This document shows positions 29,829-37,451 of a DNA stretch of 64,000 nucleotides, in pieces. The DNA is from Millisia brevis NBRC 105863. GTDB taxonomy: Bacteria > Actinomycetota > Actinomycetes > Mycobacteriales > Mycobacteriaceae. The stretch's first letter is position 1. The number at the start of each line of letters is the position of its first letter. A program made the translations under genes and the position numbers. The stretch is taken from positions 186,001-250,000 of the forward strand of contig NZ_BCRN01000008.1 of the NCBI RefSeq assembly GCF_001552615.1, written 5' to 3'. The notes under the pieces were generated by a model, which was not told the origin of the DNA, made no database searches, and saw only the letters and a program-made list of their open reading frames with translations.

Positions 29829-31553
29829 TCAGGCGTCCGCCGCGCCGGCGAGCCGTCGCAGTTCGCGGCGCAGGATCTTCCCCGTGGTGGTCAGCGGCAG
29901 TTCGTCGAGAAAGCGGATCACCCGGGGGTACTGGTAGAAGGCCAACTTCTGCTTGACCCGCACCTGGAGCTGTCCGGCGATCAGGTCCCGGTCGGTGTCG
30001 CTCTCACCACCCGGCGACTCGGTGAGGACAACAAACGCCTGGATCGACTCGCCGCGCAGCGCGTCGGGTACGCCCACGACGCCCGCCATCGCCACCCGGG
30101 GATGCCCGAGCAGGCACTCCTCGATCTCTCCGGGACCGATCCGATACCCCGACGAGGAGATGACGTCGTCGATGCGGCCGCGGTACCAGAGGTTGCCCGC
30201 CGCGTCGCTCGAGCCGAGGTCGCCGGTGTGGATCCAGCCGTCGCGCCGCTTGTCCGCGGTCTTCTCCGGTTGCCGCCAGTACTCCAGGAACTGCCCGGGA
30301 TTGTCCGCCGCGACGCAGATCTCGCCGACCTCGCCGGCCGGCACCGGTCGAGAGTCCGGGTCGAGAATCGCCACGGTGAAGCCGGGGAAGGCGCGGCCCA
30401 TCGACTCCGGTGCGGGCGTCCACTGCGACCGGGACGTGCCGACGGTCATGTTGATCTCGGTCTGCCCGTAGAACTCGTTGATCGGCACACCGAGCGTCGC
30501 GTTCACCCAGTTCGGCAGCGCGGAACCGAGCGATTCACCGCCGGTGGCGATCATTCGCAACACCAGCTGATCGGCCGAGGGTGGCAGGTCGGCGCCGCGC
30601 ATATGCTTCAAGGCCGTCGGTGGGATGAACGCCAATGTGACCCGGTGGCGCCGCATCAGGTCGATCGCCCCCTGTGGGGTGAACGGATCCGGTGACGCGA
30701 CCACCGGGCAGCCGAGGGCAAGGGCCGGGAAGAGCACATCGAACAGTCCACCGATCCAGGCCCAGTCCGCCGGGGTCCAGAACACATCATCCGGTTGCGG
30801 CGCATCATCGAACGCGATTCGCACGCCGGGCAGATGCGCCGCCAAGGCGCGATGTCCGTGCACCGCACCCTTGGGACTACCGGTGGTGCCGGAGGTGTAG
30901 ATGATGATCGCCGGCGAATCCGGTGTCGTGTCGGCCGTCCCGTGGTACTCCGGCGCGGAGGCGAGCAGAGCATCGAATCGCAGTCGCCCGAATCCCGGTG
31001 GCTCGAATCCCGTTGGTCCGCTGCTCATGTCCGGCTCTCCGACCAGCACCGTCGCAGCGAGGTCGGGGATGTCGACCAGTTCGTCGGCGATACGGTGATG
31101 GATCGCGGCGTCGATGATCAGAACCCGCGCACCCGAGTCGCGGAGTCGATGACCGACCGCCTCGGCGCCGAACTTCACCGACAGCGGCACGGTCACCAGC
31201 CCGGCGCGGAACGCACCCAGGTGGGCGGCGAGGACTTCGACACCCTGCGGGATCATCACCGCGACACGGTCGCCGACAGCGAGTCCCAGCTCACCCAACG
31301 CCCCGGCGACTCGGCGGCTGAGCGACGCGACATCCCCGAAGGTATGGGTGGTCGACACGCCGGCAGTGTCGACGATCAGCGCGGTGTCGTGCGGGTGGGG
31401 CAGGTCGACGCACGCCCGGGCGATGTTGAACGAGTCGGGGATGTGCCGGCCGAAATCGGCGCCGGTGATCGGCCGCCACCACGGTTCTGCCGGCCGCCGT
31501 TCGCTGGTTGCCTCCTCGCCGGTTCGGTTCTCCTCGAACGGTTTCGATGTCAC
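29829..31553 (-). CDS. AMP-dependent acyl-CoA synthetase
   Basis: Activates a carboxylic acid to its CoA ester through an acyl-AMP. The 574-residue enzyme has the P-loop motif IIIYTSGTTGSPKGAVHGHR (about residue 218), the A5 motif NEFYGQTEINM, the hinge region GWIHTGDLG...YRGRIDDVISSSGYR and the catalytic Lys in TTTGKILRREL. The pattern GxSGYRIGPGEIEECLLGHP is seen in acetyl/propionyl and medium-chain acid ligases. It diverges from the alcohol dehydrogenase gene with a shared 188-bp control region, so it may activate the acid made by alcohol and aldehyde oxidation here. Confidence 0.88.
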   Translation of the reverse strand: MTSKPFEENRTGEEATSERRPAEPWWRPITGADFGRHIPDSFNIARACVDLPHPHDTALIVDTAGVSTTHTFGDVASLSRRVAGALGELGLAVGDRVAVMIPQGVEVLAAHLGAFRAGLVTVPLSVKFGAEAVGHRLRDSGARVLIIDAAIHHRIADELVDIPDLAATVLVGEPDMSSGPTGFEPPGFGRLRFDALLASAPEYHGTADTTPDSPAIIIYTSGTTGSPKGAVHGHRALAAHLPGVRIAFDDAPQPDDVFWTPADWAWIGGLFDVLFPALALGCPVVASPDPFTPQGAIDLMRRHRVTLAFIPPTALKHMRGADLPPSADQLVLRMIATGGESLGSALPNWVNATLGVPINEFYGQTEINMTVGTSRSQWTPAPESMGRAFPGFTVAILDPDSRPVPAGEVGEICVAADNPGQFLEYWRQPEKTADKRRDGWIHTGDLGSSDAAGNLWYRGRIDDVISSSGYRIGPGEIEECLLGHPRVAMAGVVGVPDALRGESIQAFVVLTESPGGESDTDRDLIAGQLQVRVKQKLAFYQYPRVIRFLDELPLTTTGKILRRELRRLAGAADA

Positions 31554-31666: not shown

Positions 31667-31713
31667 TGTCTCGAGAACGGACACATATCCGGGTGGCGCG
31701 CGTCACACGATGT
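31667..31713 (+). promoter_or_regulatory. Activator-type promoter of the alcohol dehydrogenase gene
   Basis: A 17-bp dyad TGTCTCGAGAACGGACA (31667-31683) is followed after 18 bases by GTCACACGATGT (31702-31713). The 12-mer contains CACGAT, a -10-like element; no -35 box is visible. The same dyad type, spacer length and identical 12-mer occur at 36230-36276. The dyad is probably bound by the AcoR/MimR-type activator encoded at 32968-34653. Confidence 0.6.
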
Positions 31714-31741
31714 GCCTGCGCTTCTACGAAAGGCAGATGAG

Positions 31742-32884
31742 ATGCAAGGTCAAACGATCGCCACCCGCGCCGCGCTGCTGCACAAGGCGGGCCCGGACGC
31801 GAAGTTCACCATCGAGGATGTGACGCTCGATCCTCCGAGGGGGCCCGAGGTTCGGGTGAAGCTGGCGGCCTCCGGGTTGTGCCACTCCGATGAGCACCTG
31901 CGTTACGGGGCCTACGATTTGGACTGGTCGCCCTGCCTGGGCGGGCACGAGGGCGCCGGGGTGATCGTGGACGTCGGCGACGAGGTGACCGACCTCGAGG
32001 TCGGCGATCACGTGGTGCTGACCTTCATTCCGTCGTGCGGCAAGTGTCCGCCGTGCGTCTCCGGGCACAGCAACCTGTGCGATATGGGGGCCGAATTGTT
32101 CTCCGGGGTCAGCGTCTACGACGGCACCCACCGCTTCCACTGGCAGGGGCAGGGCGTCGGTCAGTTCGTGCAGCTCGGCACCTTCACGCCGTACACGGTG
32201 GTGCACCAGAACTCGGCGGTGAAGATCGACAAGAGCATTCCGCTGGACAAGGCGGCGCTCGTGGGCTGCGGTGTGGCAACGGGATTCGGCACCGGATCGT
32301 GGGCGGCCGATACCCGCATCGGCGACACCGCGGTGGTGGTCGGCTGCGGCGGTATCGGGATGAACGCGGTACAGGGCTTCCGCGTCGCCGGGGCCACCAC
32401 GATCGTCGCGGTCGATCCGCTCGACTGGAAGACCGAACTGGCGGTGGAGAAGTTCGGCGCCACCCATCGTGCGTCGTCGATGGAGGAGGCGCGCGGGATC
32501 GTCTCGGACCTGACCCACAACCGGATGGCCGATCGACTCGCCTACACGGTGGGCAACGGCCTCGGCTCCGATATCGAGACCGCGTTCTCGCTGATCGGCA
32601 AGCTCGGCATCATGGTCTTCACCTCGGTCGCCGAGGCGGTCGCCCGCGACGCGAAGATCGACCTGTTCACGCTGACCCACTACCAGCAGCAGTTGCGCGG
32701 CGCGCTCTACGGCTCGGCGAATCCGCGTGCCGACATCCCCAAGCTCCTGCGGCTCTACCAGCAGGGAATCCTCAAGCTCGATGAGTTGGTCACGCAGACA
32801 TACACTCTCGACGACGTCAACCAGGGATATACCGACCTGCTCGACGGAAAGAACATCCGCGGGGTCATCCTCTACGAGGACTGA
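31742..32884 (+). CDS. NDMA-dependent alcohol dehydrogenase
   Basis: Zinc alcohol dehydrogenase of the actinobacterial group that holds NAD tightly and uses an unknown physiological acceptor (N,N-dimethyl-4-nitrosoaniline in vitro). The 380-residue protein shows catalytic zinc ligands in GLCHSDEH and GGHEGAGVI, the structural zinc loop CGKCPPCVSGHSNLC, and the nucleotide-binding VVVGCGGIGMNAVQG. ATG at 31742 follows GAAAGG; the frame is open upstream to 31712. Such enzymes oxidise alcohols from propane, methanol or longer substrates. Neighbouring aldehyde dehydrogenase and acyl-CoA synthetase genes complete a route to acyl-CoA. Confidence 0.92.
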   Translation: MQGQTIATRAALLHKAGPDAKFTIEDVTLDPPRGPEVRVKLAASGLCHSDEHLRYGAYDLDWSPCLGGHEGAGVIVDVGDEVTDLEVGDHVVLTFIPSCGKCPPCVSGHSNLCDMGAELFSGVSVYDGTHRFHWQGQGVGQFVQLGTFTPYTVVHQNSAVKIDKSIPLDKAALVGCGVATGFGTGSWAADTRIGDTAVVVGCGGIGMNAVQGFRVAGATTIVAVDPLDWKTELAVEKFGATHRASSMEEARGIVSDLTHNRMADRLAYTVGNGLGSDIETAFSLIGKLGIMVFTSVAEAVARDAKIDLFTLTHYQQQLRGALYGSANPRADIPKLLRLYQQGILKLDELVTQTYTLDDVNQGYTDLLDGKNIRGVILYED

Positions 32885-32895
32885 CCGGCTCGCCG

Positions 32896-32929
32896 GAGAA
32901 AGGGGGCGCCGCCCGGCGCCCCCTTTCTC
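32896..32929. terminator. Bidirectional hairpin terminator
   Basis: GAGAAAGGGGGCGCC pairs perfectly with GGCGCCCCCTTTCTC around a GCCC loop. It sits in the 83-bp gap between the convergent alcohol dehydrogenase and activator genes, and its AAA/TTT ends let it serve both strands. Confidence 0.8.
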
Positions 32930-32967
32930 GGTGGGTCTACGGCCCGCTCCACTCGGTGGCCGCGCGG

Positions 32968-34653
32968 TCAGCGCGCCGCCGCCTCCTGGAAGTAGCGCAT
33001 CCGCGAGTAGAGCTTGGACCTGCTGATGCCCAGATGTTTGGCGGTGTGCACCTTGTTGCCGTTGTACGCGGCCAGGGTTCGCTCGATCAGGTCGAGTTCC
33101 GCGGATTCGAACGGCGTCAACCCCGTTCGCGCCGGCGAGGGCCGTTGGTAGCGCGCCGGCAGATCCGCGACCACGATGTCGCCCACCGACCGGCGATCGA
33201 CCGCATGCCGCAGGACCATTTCGAGCTCGGCACAATTCCCGGGCCAACTGTGTGCCCGCAGCACATCGAGCACCGGGCGGCTGAGCCGAACCCGACCTCC
33301 CCGAGTGAATTCCGGCCGACCGAGCATCTCCCCGGTGATCGTCGACAGATCGGACAGTCGCTCGCGCAACGGCGGCAGCTCCACCCACTCCGGGCACAAG
33401 CTGCCCGCATAGCCGAGTGCGGCGCTGTCGGTGGCCGTCCCGGTCGCGGTCATGATCAACCGTCGGCGCTGCCGGGCCAACGCCCCGATCACCGCATCGA
33501 TCCTCGCATCCGGGCTCACATCCGGGTCCGCTCCGGGGCTGCGAACATCCTCGATCACCACCGGTCCGTCCGGCAGATCGACCGGAACGCCCCCGGCCAG
33601 CTCGGCGGCATCGAGGACGGTCGCGGCGGGCCCGGCGATCTGCCGCGCGGTGCGGCTGCGCCCCGAACCGTGCTCTCCGACGACCAGGACATTGCCGTCC
33701 TGCCCGGCGAGCGCAGCGATCCGGTCGGAGAGCCGTTCGGTCGAGGAGAGGGTTCGCCCGATCGCGCGCGGCACCGCCGGACGACCACCGCCGCCGTCCC
33801 GCACCCGCAGCAGAGATGCATCGATACTGCCGACGACGTGCGATTCGACGCCCACGACGCGGCCGGATTCCAACTCCAGGGCGACGGTGGTCGACCGTCC
33901 CCGCAGTTCACCGGCCAGCCGTTCGAGGTCGGCCAGATCCACCGCCGACAGCACGTCCGCGGTGCGGTTGTTCTGCAGAACGAAATCGCGGCCGAACAGC
34001 AGCACCACGTCGTCGGTACGGCGGGTCAGGGCGCGAAAAGCCGCCAGGGAGTGCAGCACATCGGTGTCGTAGTCGGCGAGCATCCTCGCGGTGATGTCCC
34101 GGACGGTCTGCGTGAGCACGGTGTGCATGACGCGGGTATCGATCCCGGAATCCATCATCAGATCCAGAATCCCCTCGAGCCTGCGGGTCACCGGGTTGAT
34201 GACCGGCACCCCGTAGCAGCTCAGCGTCTTCATGCACTCCAGGTAGTGCTCCGCACCGTGGATCTCGACCGGTTCGCGGGTCTCGTAACAGGTGGCGATC
34301 GCGTTGGTGCCGGTGTTCTCCTCGTCGAAGACCACCCCCGGTCGGGCGCCGATCCCCTCGGTCGCGGTCGCCAGGTCCTGATCGCCGAAGAACGCGTCGA
34401 CGACGGTCGCCGAGTTGTCGGCGAGCAGCCCGCCGGCCCGGAGCCCGCGGAATTCCTCCGCGAGAACATCCAGGACCGGGCGGGCGGTCGCCACCAGTCT
34501 GCTCGACGGGTTGTACTCGCGTTCGACCTCGCCGATCGTGTCCTGCGGGACCAGACCCGCACGCTCCGATCGCTGCCACGACTGCACGATCGCCGCCCTG
34601 GTCATCGGAGGCGGCACATACCGCAACGGCGGCACCGCAAACGCTCCGGACAT
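32968..34653 (-). CDS. AcoR/MimR-type transcriptional activator
   Basis: A 561-residue regulator of the kind that switches on alcohol, acetoin or propane oxidation genes. Order: N-terminal helical part with SWQRSERAGLVP, a GAF-type sensor (about 65-220, GVVFDEENTGTNAIATCYET), a shortened AAA-like region, and a Fis-type helix-turn-helix (AYNGNKVHTAKHLGISRSKL). The Walker A site is degenerate (GEHGSGRS, Arg for Lys) and the GAFTGA loop that contacts sigma-54 is absent. ATG at 34653 chosen; GTG at 34659 possible. It lies 22 bp after the aldehyde dehydrogenase gene on the same strand. Confidence 0.85.
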   Translation of the reverse strand: MSGAFAVPPLRYVPPPMTRAAIVQSWQRSERAGLVPQDTIGEVEREYNPSSRLVATARPVLDVLAEEFRGLRAGGLLADNSATVVDAFFGDQDLATATEGIGARPGVVFDEENTGTNAIATCYETREPVEIHGAEHYLECMKTLSCYGVPVINPVTRRLEGILDLMMDSGIDTRVMHTVLTQTVRDITARMLADYDTDVLHSLAAFRALTRRTDDVVLLFGRDFVLQNNRTADVLSAVDLADLERLAGELRGRSTTVALELESGRVVGVESHVVGSIDASLLRVRDGGGGRPAVPRAIGRTLSSTERLSDRIAALAGQDGNVLVVGEHGSGRSRTARQIAGPAATVLDAAELAGGVPVDLPDGPVVIEDVRSPGADPDVSPDARIDAVIGALARQRRRLIMTATGTATDSAALGYAGSLCPEWVELPPLRERLSDLSTITGEMLGRPEFTRGGRVRLSRPVLDVLRAHSWPGNCAELEMVLRHAVDRRSVGDIVVADLPARYQRPSPARTGLTPFESAELDLIERTLAAYNGNKVHTAKHLGISRSKLYSRMRYFQEAAAR

Positions 34654-34675
34654 GGTCACAACTGTACTTTCGAAC

Positions 34676-36124
34676 CTACTGTCGGGAGACGTGGATCACA
34701 TGAGCGTCGGTGAATTCCTCGAGCCCCTCCCGACCGAACTCGACGCCGAGCCCCGACTGCTTGCGGCCACCGAACGGCACCCCCGGTTCGAGCGCGAAGT
34801 GGGTATTCACCCACACAGTTCCGCTCTCGAGCCGATCGGCGACGGCGGTGGCAGCGGCGATATCGGTGCCCCACACCGAGTTGCCCAGGCCGTAGGGGGT
34901 GTCATTGGCGCGGGCGATCGCATCGTCGAGATCGTCGTACCGCAGCACCGACCGGATCGGCCCGAAGGTCTCCTCGCGAATCAGCGAGCTGCTGTCGTCG
35001 ATATCGCGCACCACGGTCGGCTCGACGAAGTAGCCGTCACCCTCGACCACATGGCCACCGGCGACGATCGTGCCGTCGCGGCGGGCAACCTCCAGATAGC
35101 GCTGCACCGCCTCGAACTGCCGGGCATTCTGGATCGGCCCCAACTCGGTCGCCGGATCGAGCCCGTGGCCGAGCACCGCAGCGCTTGCGAGGCGGCCGAG
35201 TTCGGTGCAGAACTCGTCGTAGATCGCGGCGGGCACAAAGATGCGCTTGATGTTGATGCAGACCTGCCCGGAGTTGACGAAGGCCCAGGTGAAGATGCCG
35301 GCCGCAGCTGCGGTGATATCCGCATCGGCCAGCACGATCGCCGCGTCGTTGCCGCCGAGCTCGAGCACCACACGCTTGAGACTTGCGGCGCTGCTTGCCA
35401 TCACCTTGCGGCCGGCCGCCGTCGAGCCGGTGAAGGACACCTTGCCGACGTCCGGGTGGTCGGTCAACTGCGGGCCGACCGCGCCGGCGTCGCCGACGAT
35501 GTTGACCACCCCGGCCGGTACCAGGTCGGCCAGGATCTCACCGAGCAGCATCGCGTTGAGCGGGGTGGTCGGCGCCGGTTTGACCACCACGGTGTTTCCC
35601 GCGAGCAGCGCGGGCGCAAGCTTGTAGACGGTCTGGAAGAACGGGAAGTTCCAGGGAATGATCGCCGCGACCACCCCGATCGGCTTGCGGCGCACCTCGA
35701 TATAGGCGTCGCTGTCGTCCCGCAGTACCTCACCGTCGAGCGACATACCGGCGACGTGGCGCGCCCATTGCACCGCCAGGTCCACATCACCGAGCGCCGC
35801 GACGATCGGCTTGCCGTTCTCGAGCACGATCACCCGCCCGATCTGCTCGCGGCGCGCCTCGATCGCGTCCGCGATCCGCTCGATGACGACGGCGCGTTCG
35901 GCGAGCGGGGTGTCGCGCCACCGCGGAAATGCCGCCTTCGCCGCGGCCACCGCCGCGTCGACCTGGGCGTCGTCGGCGACCGGCGCTTGTGCGATCACTC
36001 GGCCCGTGGCCGGATCGATCACCGGTTGGGTATCGGCTCCCGGCACCGGGCGGCCGTCGATGAGCTGGTGGAAGGCATGATCCTCGACTCCCGTGAGATC
36101 GATGGCCGGTGCGGCGAACGTCAT
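34676..36124 (-). CDS. Aldehyde dehydrogenase
   Basis: NAD(P)-dependent oxidation of an aldehyde to the acid, 482 residues. Landmarks: IPWNFPFF, KPAPTTPLNA, the glycine-rich FTGSTAAGRKV, general base Glu in VLELGGNDA, nucleophile Cys in NSGQVCINIKR, and C-terminal EETFGPIRSVLRY and PFGGRKQSGLG. It belongs to the broad class that includes benzaldehyde, betaine-aldehyde and medium-chain enzymes. Upstream lie two copies of the dyad proposed for the neighbouring activator. It is probably co-transcribed with the activator gene and completes alcohol to acid conversion. Confidence 0.93.
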   Translation of the reverse strand: MTFAAPAIDLTGVEDHAFHQLIDGRPVPGADTQPVIDPATGRVIAQAPVADDAQVDAAVAAAKAAFPRWRDTPLAERAVVIERIADAIEARREQIGRVIVLENGKPIVAALGDVDLAVQWARHVAGMSLDGEVLRDDSDAYIEVRRKPIGVVAAIIPWNFPFFQTVYKLAPALLAGNTVVVKPAPTTPLNAMLLGEILADLVPAGVVNIVGDAGAVGPQLTDHPDVGKVSFTGSTAAGRKVMASSAASLKRVVLELGGNDAAIVLADADITAAAAGIFTWAFVNSGQVCINIKRIFVPAAIYDEFCTELGRLASAAVLGHGLDPATELGPIQNARQFEAVQRYLEVARRDGTIVAGGHVVEGDGYFVEPTVVRDIDDSSSLIREETFGPIRSVLRYDDLDDAIARANDTPYGLGNSVWGTDIAAATAVADRLESGTVWVNTHFALEPGVPFGGRKQSGLGVEFGREGLEEFTDAHVIHVSRQ

Positions 36125-36190
36125 GGCTTTCTCCTGGGTCGAGCGGAAGTGTGACGTGGCTCATCTTCGGCCGATGGCCCGGGCGGCAAC

Positions 36191-36276
36191 TGTCCGCTTT
36201 CCGGACACCGTCGCCGTTCGACCGGGCACTGCCCGATTCGCGGACAGATAGCGCTGTGTGCGGGGTCACACGATGT
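36191..36276. promoter_or_regulatory. Twin activator sites and promoter between aldehyde dehydrogenase and membrane-protein genes
   Basis: Site A, TGTCCGCTTTCCGGACA (36191-36207), is a perfect 6-bp-arm dyad. Site B, TGCCCGATTCGCGGACA (36230-36246), differs at one arm position. Eighteen bases after site B is GTCACACGATGT (36265-36276), identical to the element before the alcohol dehydrogenase gene and at the same distance from its dyad. Site A could serve the divergent aldehyde dehydrogenase gene, site B the rightward gene. Confidence 0.6.
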
Positions 36277-36302: not shown

Positions 36303-37451
36303 TTGCTCACTTCATCTACCGGCGCGTGGCTGCGGCACGGCGCCGCGGCCACCGCCATCACCGTCGTTCTCGCCCTGCTCGGCTGGTGGCTGCTCGCCGA
36401 TCCCCAGTGGAGCCCCCTCGGGATCTATCCGCTGCCGTTCAACGGATATCTGTTCTGGGCGATCATCTTTGTGGTGTTCGCCGGCTTCAATCTCGAATTC
36501 CACCCCTTCGCCGCGCTCCCGCAGCCCTGGCGCGGGTTGGCGATCACCGGTGCCACAGCGGTCTTTTCGATCGTCGTCACCCTGCTGCTCGCCTACGGCC
36601 TGGGGCACTTCTTTCCGGACTTCGCCGCCGACCGGGCCGACGGCCTCGGCTACTTCAGCGGCGCGCTCTTCGTCCTGTTCGCCTTCGGCACCTACGTGTT
36701 GACGGTGGTCAATTGGCAGCACTGGCCGTGGCCGCAGCTCGGTCTGCGGCAGCCGTTGATCGGGTGGTCCGAGATCGCCTTCTGGTTCCCGGTAACCCTG
36801 GCGCTGTTTCTGATCCTCGGTCTGCCGGCGATCTCCTTGTCCACGCCGCCCGGCGCCGCGTTGATGTCGGTCGACACGGTGATCGGCTGGTTCTACTGCA
36901 GCATCGTGGTGATCGTGTTGACCGGCTCCCTGCTCGACAACCGTCCCTGGTCGCGCCTGCGCTCACCGGCCGCGGTGGCGATCGCCTCGACCGTCGGAGC
37001 CGTCGGACTGGGCACCGCGCTCTACTTCGTTCTGCTGCCCGTCGTGCGGGTACTGGTCGGCTCGCGCAACGCGGAGATCCTGGGTGACGTGATCCACCAG
37101 TACCCCGCCCAGCTGGGCGTGTGCTGGGTATTCGCGATGGTGCTGTGGGCCAACGCTTTCGGCAATATCGGCACGCCGCTGGTGCGCATCCTGGTCACCG
37201 CCGCGATCGCGGTGGGACTCTTCCTGCTCTACTTTCACGTCCTCGCCGGCAGCATCCTGCACGAACCGGCGGTGGCCGAGGGGGCCTCGATCAGCGGCAA
37301 CGGTCTGGGCTTCATCAACTGGTTGATCCTGGTGTTGCTGCTCTACGTGGTCGGCGCCGACAGTTGGGGATTGCGTACCCCCGAACCCGTCGATGGTGCG
37401 GCGCCGGCGACCGCCTCCGAGGAGAAGGAGGAGGCGGTCGCGCGTCGATAG
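36303..37451 (+). CDS. Polytopic membrane protein of unknown function
   Basis: A 382-residue protein with about ten predicted helices and a charged C-terminal tail ending in EEKEEAVARR. I do not recognise the family. Conserved-looking features are several Trp-rich loops (VVNWQHWPWPQLGLRQPLIG) and helix 8 with MVLWANAFGNIGTP. I chose TTG at 36303 because AAGGAG lies five bases upstream and the predicted transcription start is about 36281; in-frame ATG at 36273 would lie before it. Its promoter matches that of the alcohol dehydrogenase gene, so it may move the alcohol, its acid or an intermediate. Confidence 0.7.
   Translation: MLTSSTGAWLRHGAAATAITVVLALLGWWLLADPQWSPLGIYPLPFNGYLFWAIIFVVFAGFNLEFHPFAALPQPWRGLAITGATAVFSIVVTLLLAYGLGHFFPDFAADRADGLGYFSGALFVLFAFGTYVLTVVNWQHWPWPQLGLRQPLIGWSEIAFWFPVTLALFLILGLPAISLSTPPGAALMSVDTVIGWFYCSIVVIVLTGSLLDNRPWSRLRSPAAVAIASTVGAVGLGTALYFVLLPVVRVLVGSRNAEILGDVIHQYPAQLGVCWVFAMVLWANAFGNIGTPLVRILVTAAIAVGLFLLYFHVLAGSILHEPAVAEGASISGNGLGFINWLILVLLLYVVGADSWGLRTPEPVDGAAPATASEEKEEAVARR

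Follow-up and report, generated by a model that had tools for sequence, protein, structure and literature searches.

Three promoters with one dyad-to-promoter spacing point to a small alcohol-oxidation regulon in Millisia brevis

How are the genes of an alcohol-oxidation locus in the actinomycete Millisia brevis NBRC 105863 brought under common control, and by which regulator? The locus lies in a 64,000-nucleotide stretch of DNA (contig NZ_BCRN01000008.1, positions 186,001 to 250,000, forward strand), called the window here, in which all window coordinates are counted. It encodes an N,N-dimethyl-4-nitrosoaniline (NDMA)-dependent alcohol dehydrogenase (ADH, 31742-32884, plus strand; TIGR03989, 495.3 bits against a cut-off of 440), a candidate activator (REG, 32968-34653, minus strand), an aldehyde dehydrogenase (ALDH, 34676-36124, minus strand; PF00171), and a membrane protein (MEM, 36303-37451, plus strand). 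A sequence-only reading had pointed out that the same layout precedes ADH and MEM, namely, a 17-bp dyad, exactly 18 bases, and an identical 12-mer, GTCACACGATGT. Here, we propose that these genes form a small regulon for alcohol oxidation, in which REG probably activates three ordinary promoters by binding immediately ahead of their -35 regions.

Both composites are present as that reading described them. Ahead of ADH, the dyad TGTCTCGAGAACGGACA (31667-31683, plus strand) departs from TGTCCGN5CGGACA at two positions and is followed by the 12-mer at 31702-31713; ahead of MEM, the dyad TGCCCGATTCGCGGACA (36230-36246, plus strand) departs at one position, and the 12-mer stands at 36265-36276. The composite TGYCYSN5CGGACA-N18-GTCACACGATGT is matched at these two places in the window, 100 dinucleotide shuffles gave no match, and the exact 12-mer occurs at just two places in the whole 5.65-Mb genome, both in this locus (reversed control, 0). 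The reading had also listed a further perfect dyad, TGTCCGCTTTCCGGACA at 36191-36207, which is the single exact occurrence of TGTCCGN5CGGACA in the genome. The site is indeed there, but it is no mere accessory: on the minus strand it heads a module of its own (36162-36207), in which 25 bases and GATG (36162-36165) follow the dyad without a mismatch. This module faces ALDH, on whose side a ribosome-binding-site-like AGGAG and then the ATG at 36124 come next.

The geometry common to the ADH, MEM, and ALDH promoters is therefore a TGTCCG-N5-CGGACA dyad, exactly 25 bases, and then (T/G)ATG, or KATG, which reads GATG in all three (31709-31712 at ADH and 36272-36275 at MEM). At ADH and MEM, this -10-like element lies inside GTCACACGATGT, in keeping with the earlier suggestion that the 12-mer holds the -10. 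When the K is placed at -12, transcription would start near 31721, 36153, and 36284, giving leaders of 21, 29, and 19 bases for ADH, ALDH, and MEM, respectively; each of the three predicted leaders contains a ribosome-binding site. ALDH and REG lie on the same strand with a gap of only 22 bp, so they probably form one operon, with ALDH first, whose promoter would be the third module. The trinucleotide GTT directly follows the dyad at the ALDH promoter, whereas the promoters of ADH and MEM lack it there.

Allowing two mismatches, GTCACACGATGT occurs at chance level in the window (6 found, 6.03 expected), and the dyad occurs at 370 places in the genome versus 203 in the reversed control; because dyads are so common at this tolerance, the ADH dyad at 31667 is meaningful only together with its spacing and downstream element. 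The combined pattern, dyad-N25-KATG, is found at eight places genome-wide with at most two mismatches, and three of these eight are the modules of this locus. With at most three mismatches, the pattern becomes uninformative: the window count is 3 versus 2.03 expected, and the genome holds 107 matches versus 44 in the reversed control.

Relatives show which letters matter. The survey covered 401 genomes of the family, this one included; the other 400 carry the same family label, and none belongs to the same genus. A search for dyad-18-GTCACACGATGT, of the kind that the sequence-only reading had proposed, gave matches with at most three mismatches in 7 of the 401 genomes. The six foreign matches (five in genus g6 and one in g9; L138, L140-L144) were rejected as promoters, all being inside long open frames. 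We also rejected GTCACACGATGT as a family element: it is found at dyads in this genome only and at chance frequency with two mismatches, and the conserved feature is instead (T/G)ATG 25 bases past the dyad.

This conservation emerged from comparing 36 loci with REG relatives (340 kb; six loci are this genome's own paralogs, and L032 and L033 are near-duplicates) with 40 MEM neighborhoods as a control set (L098-L137, 700 kb; REG relatives are present in some of these as well), counting oriented dyads with at most two mismatches. Near REG relatives, (T/G)ATG follows at exactly 25 bases in 9 of the 36 oriented dyads, and every other distance between 10 and 45 bases accounts for at most 2; in the control loci, the count at 25 is 0 of 18. 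Dyads are also about 4-fold rarer in the control loci (1.3 versus 5.3 per 100 kb), and GTT directly after the dyad is seen at 10 of 36 oriented sites near REG relatives versus 0 of 18. Six distinct perfect TGTCC-N7-GGACA sites occur in the REG-family loci; when both orientations are considered, TATG follows at 25 bases in three and at 24 in one, and the other two, both at this genome's paralogs, have it at neither distance.

These comparisons bear on the possibility that the likeness of the promoters is due to chance or to a recent copy of one promoter and has no regulatory meaning. The two mismatches in the ADH dyad, the chance-level window count at three mismatches, and the lack of conservation of the 12-mer in relatives would all suit such an origin. 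We nevertheless judge it very improbable, as the composite is absent from all 100 shuffles and the spacing seen here is repeated beside REG relatives in other genera but not in the control loci, with little similarity between the spacers of the modules.

How far does the module reach? Twenty-one distinct instances, chosen by a pattern that already required GTT and KATG, give the consensus TGTcCgaA..t.G.ACAGTT, 22 bases, and tATG, with TCAca 7 bases on. When the family was scanned with GTT in the pattern, 74 of 301 genomes, from 18 of 31 genera, together had 120 matching places (two of them in this genome), versus 5 for the reversed pattern. Relatives of ADH, ALDH, the acyl-CoA ligase-type gene ACS (see below), or REG lie within 1.5 kb in 10 of the 29 scan loci examined (L176, L177, L179, L182, L183, L193-L196, and L204); at L179 and L182, the module directly precedes a gene whose product is 45 to 47% identical to the ADH of the window. 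Moreover, among 13 long foreign loci with REG relatives (L055-L067), 10 have an ALDH relative, and in 10 there is an ADH relative at 42 to 49% identity. The excess of the scan over its control is real, yet some matches are not promoters, and the genus count is an upper figure.

Just one relative, G008, was found to have the same four genes, and its copy of the cluster is broken (L054 10280-14451). There, the N-terminal part of REG, in one frame, stands beside and overlaps C-terminal ADH sequence, MEM lacks its N-terminal 78 to 81 residues, and only 63 bp separate ALDH from the remainder of MEM. A scan of named genomes confirmed no REG relative.

The candidate regulator sits between these promoters, and the sequence-only reading took this AcoR-like gene to be the obvious choice. 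The C-terminal part of REG matches the Fis-type helix-turn-helix (HTH) domain (PF02954, 37.6 bits; cut-off, 22), and an AAA lid is matched too. Its N terminus has no Pfam GAF match; by homology, it is probably a GAF-type sensor, as residues 14 to 165 align with two PF01590 proteins (E values of 1e-12 and 1e-16 in single comparisons). The AAA+ domain between them is degenerate. The sigma54 interaction domain (Sigma54_activat, PF00158) scores below its cut-off (13.1 versus 20.2 bits), the Walker A motif reads GEHGSGRS, with arginine for lysine, and only about 30 residues separate it from the likely Walker B. Among 35 proteins (REG, the broken G008 copy, and 33 relatives), a GAFTGA-like motif was found in none, and a Walker A-like motif was found in 25, always as GxxGxGR with arginine replacing lysine, and in none of the other 10. 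The GxxGxGR form suggests that ATPase activity has been lost along with the GAFTGA loop.

Could REG still be a true enhancer-binding protein, with the dyads as its enhancers, that acts by way of sigma54 and looping of the DNA? Its HTH_8 and AAA lid matches place it in that superfamily, and the dyad has the TGT/ACA form usual for such sites, judging from the site descriptions in PMC6615313. The genome (53 contigs, completeness 100), however, has no match to RpoN (PF04552), which was matched in 4 of 14 control genomes, and the absence of GAFTGA, the subthreshold Sigma54_activat score, and the rigid dyad-to-promoter distance also speak against it, so we regard sigma54-dependent action as extremely improbable. 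Without GAFTGA and in a genome without sigma54, REG most likely activates ordinary promoters.

The DNA-reading helix of REG, GNKVHTAKHLGISRSKLY, contains NKVH and belongs to an NKxH class. In 17 REG relatives of this class (NKVH, NKAH, or NKSH), the best modules have 0, 1, 1, 2, 2, 2, 2, 2, 2, 3, 3, 3, 3, 4, 4, 5, and 5 mismatches (median, 2); in the other 18, they have 3 to 6 (median, 4), and the range for reversed sequence is 4 to 6 in either group. A Mann-Whitney test between the two classes gives a P value of 8e-5, which ignores relatedness and serves as a guide only. Since the module goes with the NKxH class and REG has NKVH, the module is tied to the HTH class that contains REG, which strengthens the case for this gene as the best candidate regulator.

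The dyads might instead belong to another regulator, such as a REG paralog or an unrelated repressor, with REG as a bystander. The genome holds 12 matches to the REG family, counting REG itself and split pieces, and paralogs could bind the same dyads. TGTCC-N7-GGACA dyads lie at most about 200 bp upstream of the aligned part in two paralogs, and binding of REG to the dyads at the locus is itself a sequence-based proposal. We consider this alternative unlikely, if much less so than the two discussed above: the module accompanies the HTH class that includes REG, in other genera it lies in or beside REG-ALDH-ADH clusters, and placement of the dyad immediately before the -35 region, with a constant spacing, is more in line with activation than with repression. 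The dyads at the two paralogs (L050 5379, or G000 C1:345378, and L052 7466, or G000 C2:70465) have TGTCCC arms and no KATG at 25 bases.

Activation by REG, the reading we prefer, can be laid out as follows. REG, with its GAF-type sensor, crippled AAA+ domain, and Fis-type HTH, would descend from sigma54 activators but have ceased to work with sigma54. It would bind TGTCCG-N5-CGGACA, presumably as a dimer, directly upstream of the -35 region; the dyad follows the TGT-N11-ACA pattern known from classical activator sites. With (T/G)ATG taken as the -10 and its K as -12, the dyad would span about -54 to -38, and the geometry would best be read as that of a class II activator-dependent promoter. 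The GAF domain may sense an alcohol, the derived aldehyde, or a further metabolite, with an alcohol or aldehyde as the natural guess for the inducer. REG would then recruit RNA polymerase and switch on ADH, ALDH with REG, and MEM, which for the ALDH-REG operon would amount to positive autoregulation. The sequence-only reading, seeing no -35 box, had suggested that an activator probably does its work. An activator beside the -35 region does fit the geometry, but a weak -35 may remain, as the GTT at about -37 to -35 of the ALDH promoter could be a remnant box; at ADH and MEM, which have no GTT, transcription would depend more heavily on the activator. The sequence itself shows the three modules with their constant spacing, the repeated occurrence of the module next to the same gene families, its link to an HTH class, and the lack of RpoN and GAFTGA; binding of the dyads by REG, activation through that binding, the transcription starts, the inducer, and the part played by MEM are inferred.

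Several points weigh against this reading. Two of the three dyads are imperfect (one and two mismatches) and lack the GTT common in relatives, and (T/G)ATG matches the consensus -10 poorly. Four of the 17 NKxH regulators have best modules at control level (4 to 5 mismatches), the NKxH class was defined after the helices had been seen, and the test was uncorrected for relatedness. The 12 REG-family matches leave room for paralogs. Moreover, 19 of the 29 scan loci have no clear ADH, ALDH, ACS, or REG relative within 1.5 kb (two weak ACS matches, at 26%, are counted among these 19), and in six of these 19 (L197-L202, genus g6) the match falls within a long open frame, so the scan has more false matches than its reversed control suggests. 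As a separate warning for pattern scans, a conserved coding segment of genus g6 mimics the module (for example, TGTCCGATTGGCGGACA...GACGATGT; L140-L144, L197, L198, L200, and L201).

MEM has 10 long predicted helices (mean pLDDT, 88.2), and searches of Pfam, NCBIfam, and PDB sequences found no match. Nor did its predicted fold yield a convincing PDB relative, the best results being weak (Foldseek, E value of 0.09; VIA-align, Z score of 7.1 to a designed barrel). Matches to MEM occur in 48 of the 401 genomes of the family, counting this one, and in 10 of 31 genera; one match is marginal (E value of 7e-4). In 33 of 41 foreign loci, the divergent neighbor of MEM is a dehydrogenase (17 MDR, 15 SDR, and 1 ALDH); none was found in the other 8. 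The promoter, too, has a recurring form: in 23 of the 41 loci (L101-L103, L105, L108, L112-L127, L129, and L132), GCAACC repeats precede MEM and are followed by CATAGT after 25 (17 loci) or 24 (6 loci) bases, and 21 of these 23 promoters also have mirrored GTTGC repeats. In 27 of the 41 loci, a GAF regulator is encoded no more than 6.5 kb away; in two that were inspected, the GAF domain is homologous to the REG N terminus and no Fis HTH match was found.

In several genera, MEM thus accompanies dehydrogenases, and its operators, of two kinds or more, all stand at a similar distance from a -10-like element. The earlier claim that shared promoters tie MEM to alcohol metabolism gains independent support from this gene neighborhood. 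Our guess is that MEM transports an alcohol, an aldehyde, or an acid; a redox role at the membrane is also possible.

ACS, an acyl-CoA or acetyl-CoA ligase-type gene (29829-31553, minus strand), is divergent from ADH. It was weighed as a possible fourth target, but the window scan with at most three mismatches found no module facing it; in other genera, modules occur near ACS-like genes at L193-L195 and L060. Mycofactocin genes are expected in a genome with an NDMA-dependent alcohol dehydrogenase, and the radical-SAM gene, the sole pathway gene sought, is present in this genome (TIGR03962, 652.1 bits; cut-off, 265).

On the whole, the sequence-only reading is partly supported: it was right in kind, as the sites do look like promoter elements belonging to a single regulon for alcohol oxidation. 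It misjudged, however, which bases are important, and it was too limited in scope, having described one instance of a family-wide module. We also posit, tentatively and as a picture that in its entirety falls somewhat short of probable, a family-wide class of former sigma54 activators turned class II activators, with one rigid module of operator, 25 bases, and -10. Alcohol-response wiring would then be modular, with MEM in other genera under a homologous GAF sensor that has a different DNA-binding end and operator (GGTTGC/GCAACC repeats) at the same 24- to 25-base distance, and MEM would be an unrecognized membrane component of alcohol or aldehyde oxidation kept through the change of regulator. 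Apart from this wider picture, the module offers a searchable promoter code for a class of regulators in actinobacteria without sigma54, making regulons predictable from DNA alone; the findings also point to the uncharacterized MEM family as part of alcohol oxidation and illustrate a route by which sigma54 activators may have become ordinary activators. Among the papers listed by full-text literature searches, none was recognized as describing the dyad-N25-KATG module, which is weak evidence of novelty.

Known systems offer partial parallels. TyrR of Escherichia coli is a member of the sigma54 activator superfamily that acts on sigma70 promoters, and its sensor, ligand, and targets differ from those of REG. 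MimR of mycobacteria presumably belongs to the same broad class of actinobacterial regulator as REG, in line with the sequence-only reading.

Among clostridial sigma54 activators, 15 groups are described as having sites with TGT and ACA 10 to 12 bp apart (PMC6615313). The AdhR-type activators of clostridia resemble REG in their GAF-type sensor, C-terminal HTH, and alcohol dehydrogenase targets, but they depend on sigma54 and on a functional AAA+ domain, with three upstream sites for AdhR (PMC7017808, PMC6615313). At the REG locus, in contrast, each promoter adjoins a single dyad, REG has no GAFTGA motif, and the genome has no sigma54. A likeness in layout is found at prmABCD of Rhodococcus sp. 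BCP1, where, in the published description, a palindrome lies over the putative -35 of a start-mapped promoter and a Fis-family regulator gene adjoins (PMC4428276). There, however, the -10 is proposed to be TTGTAT and the palindrome is compared with E. coli Fis sites (PMC4428276).

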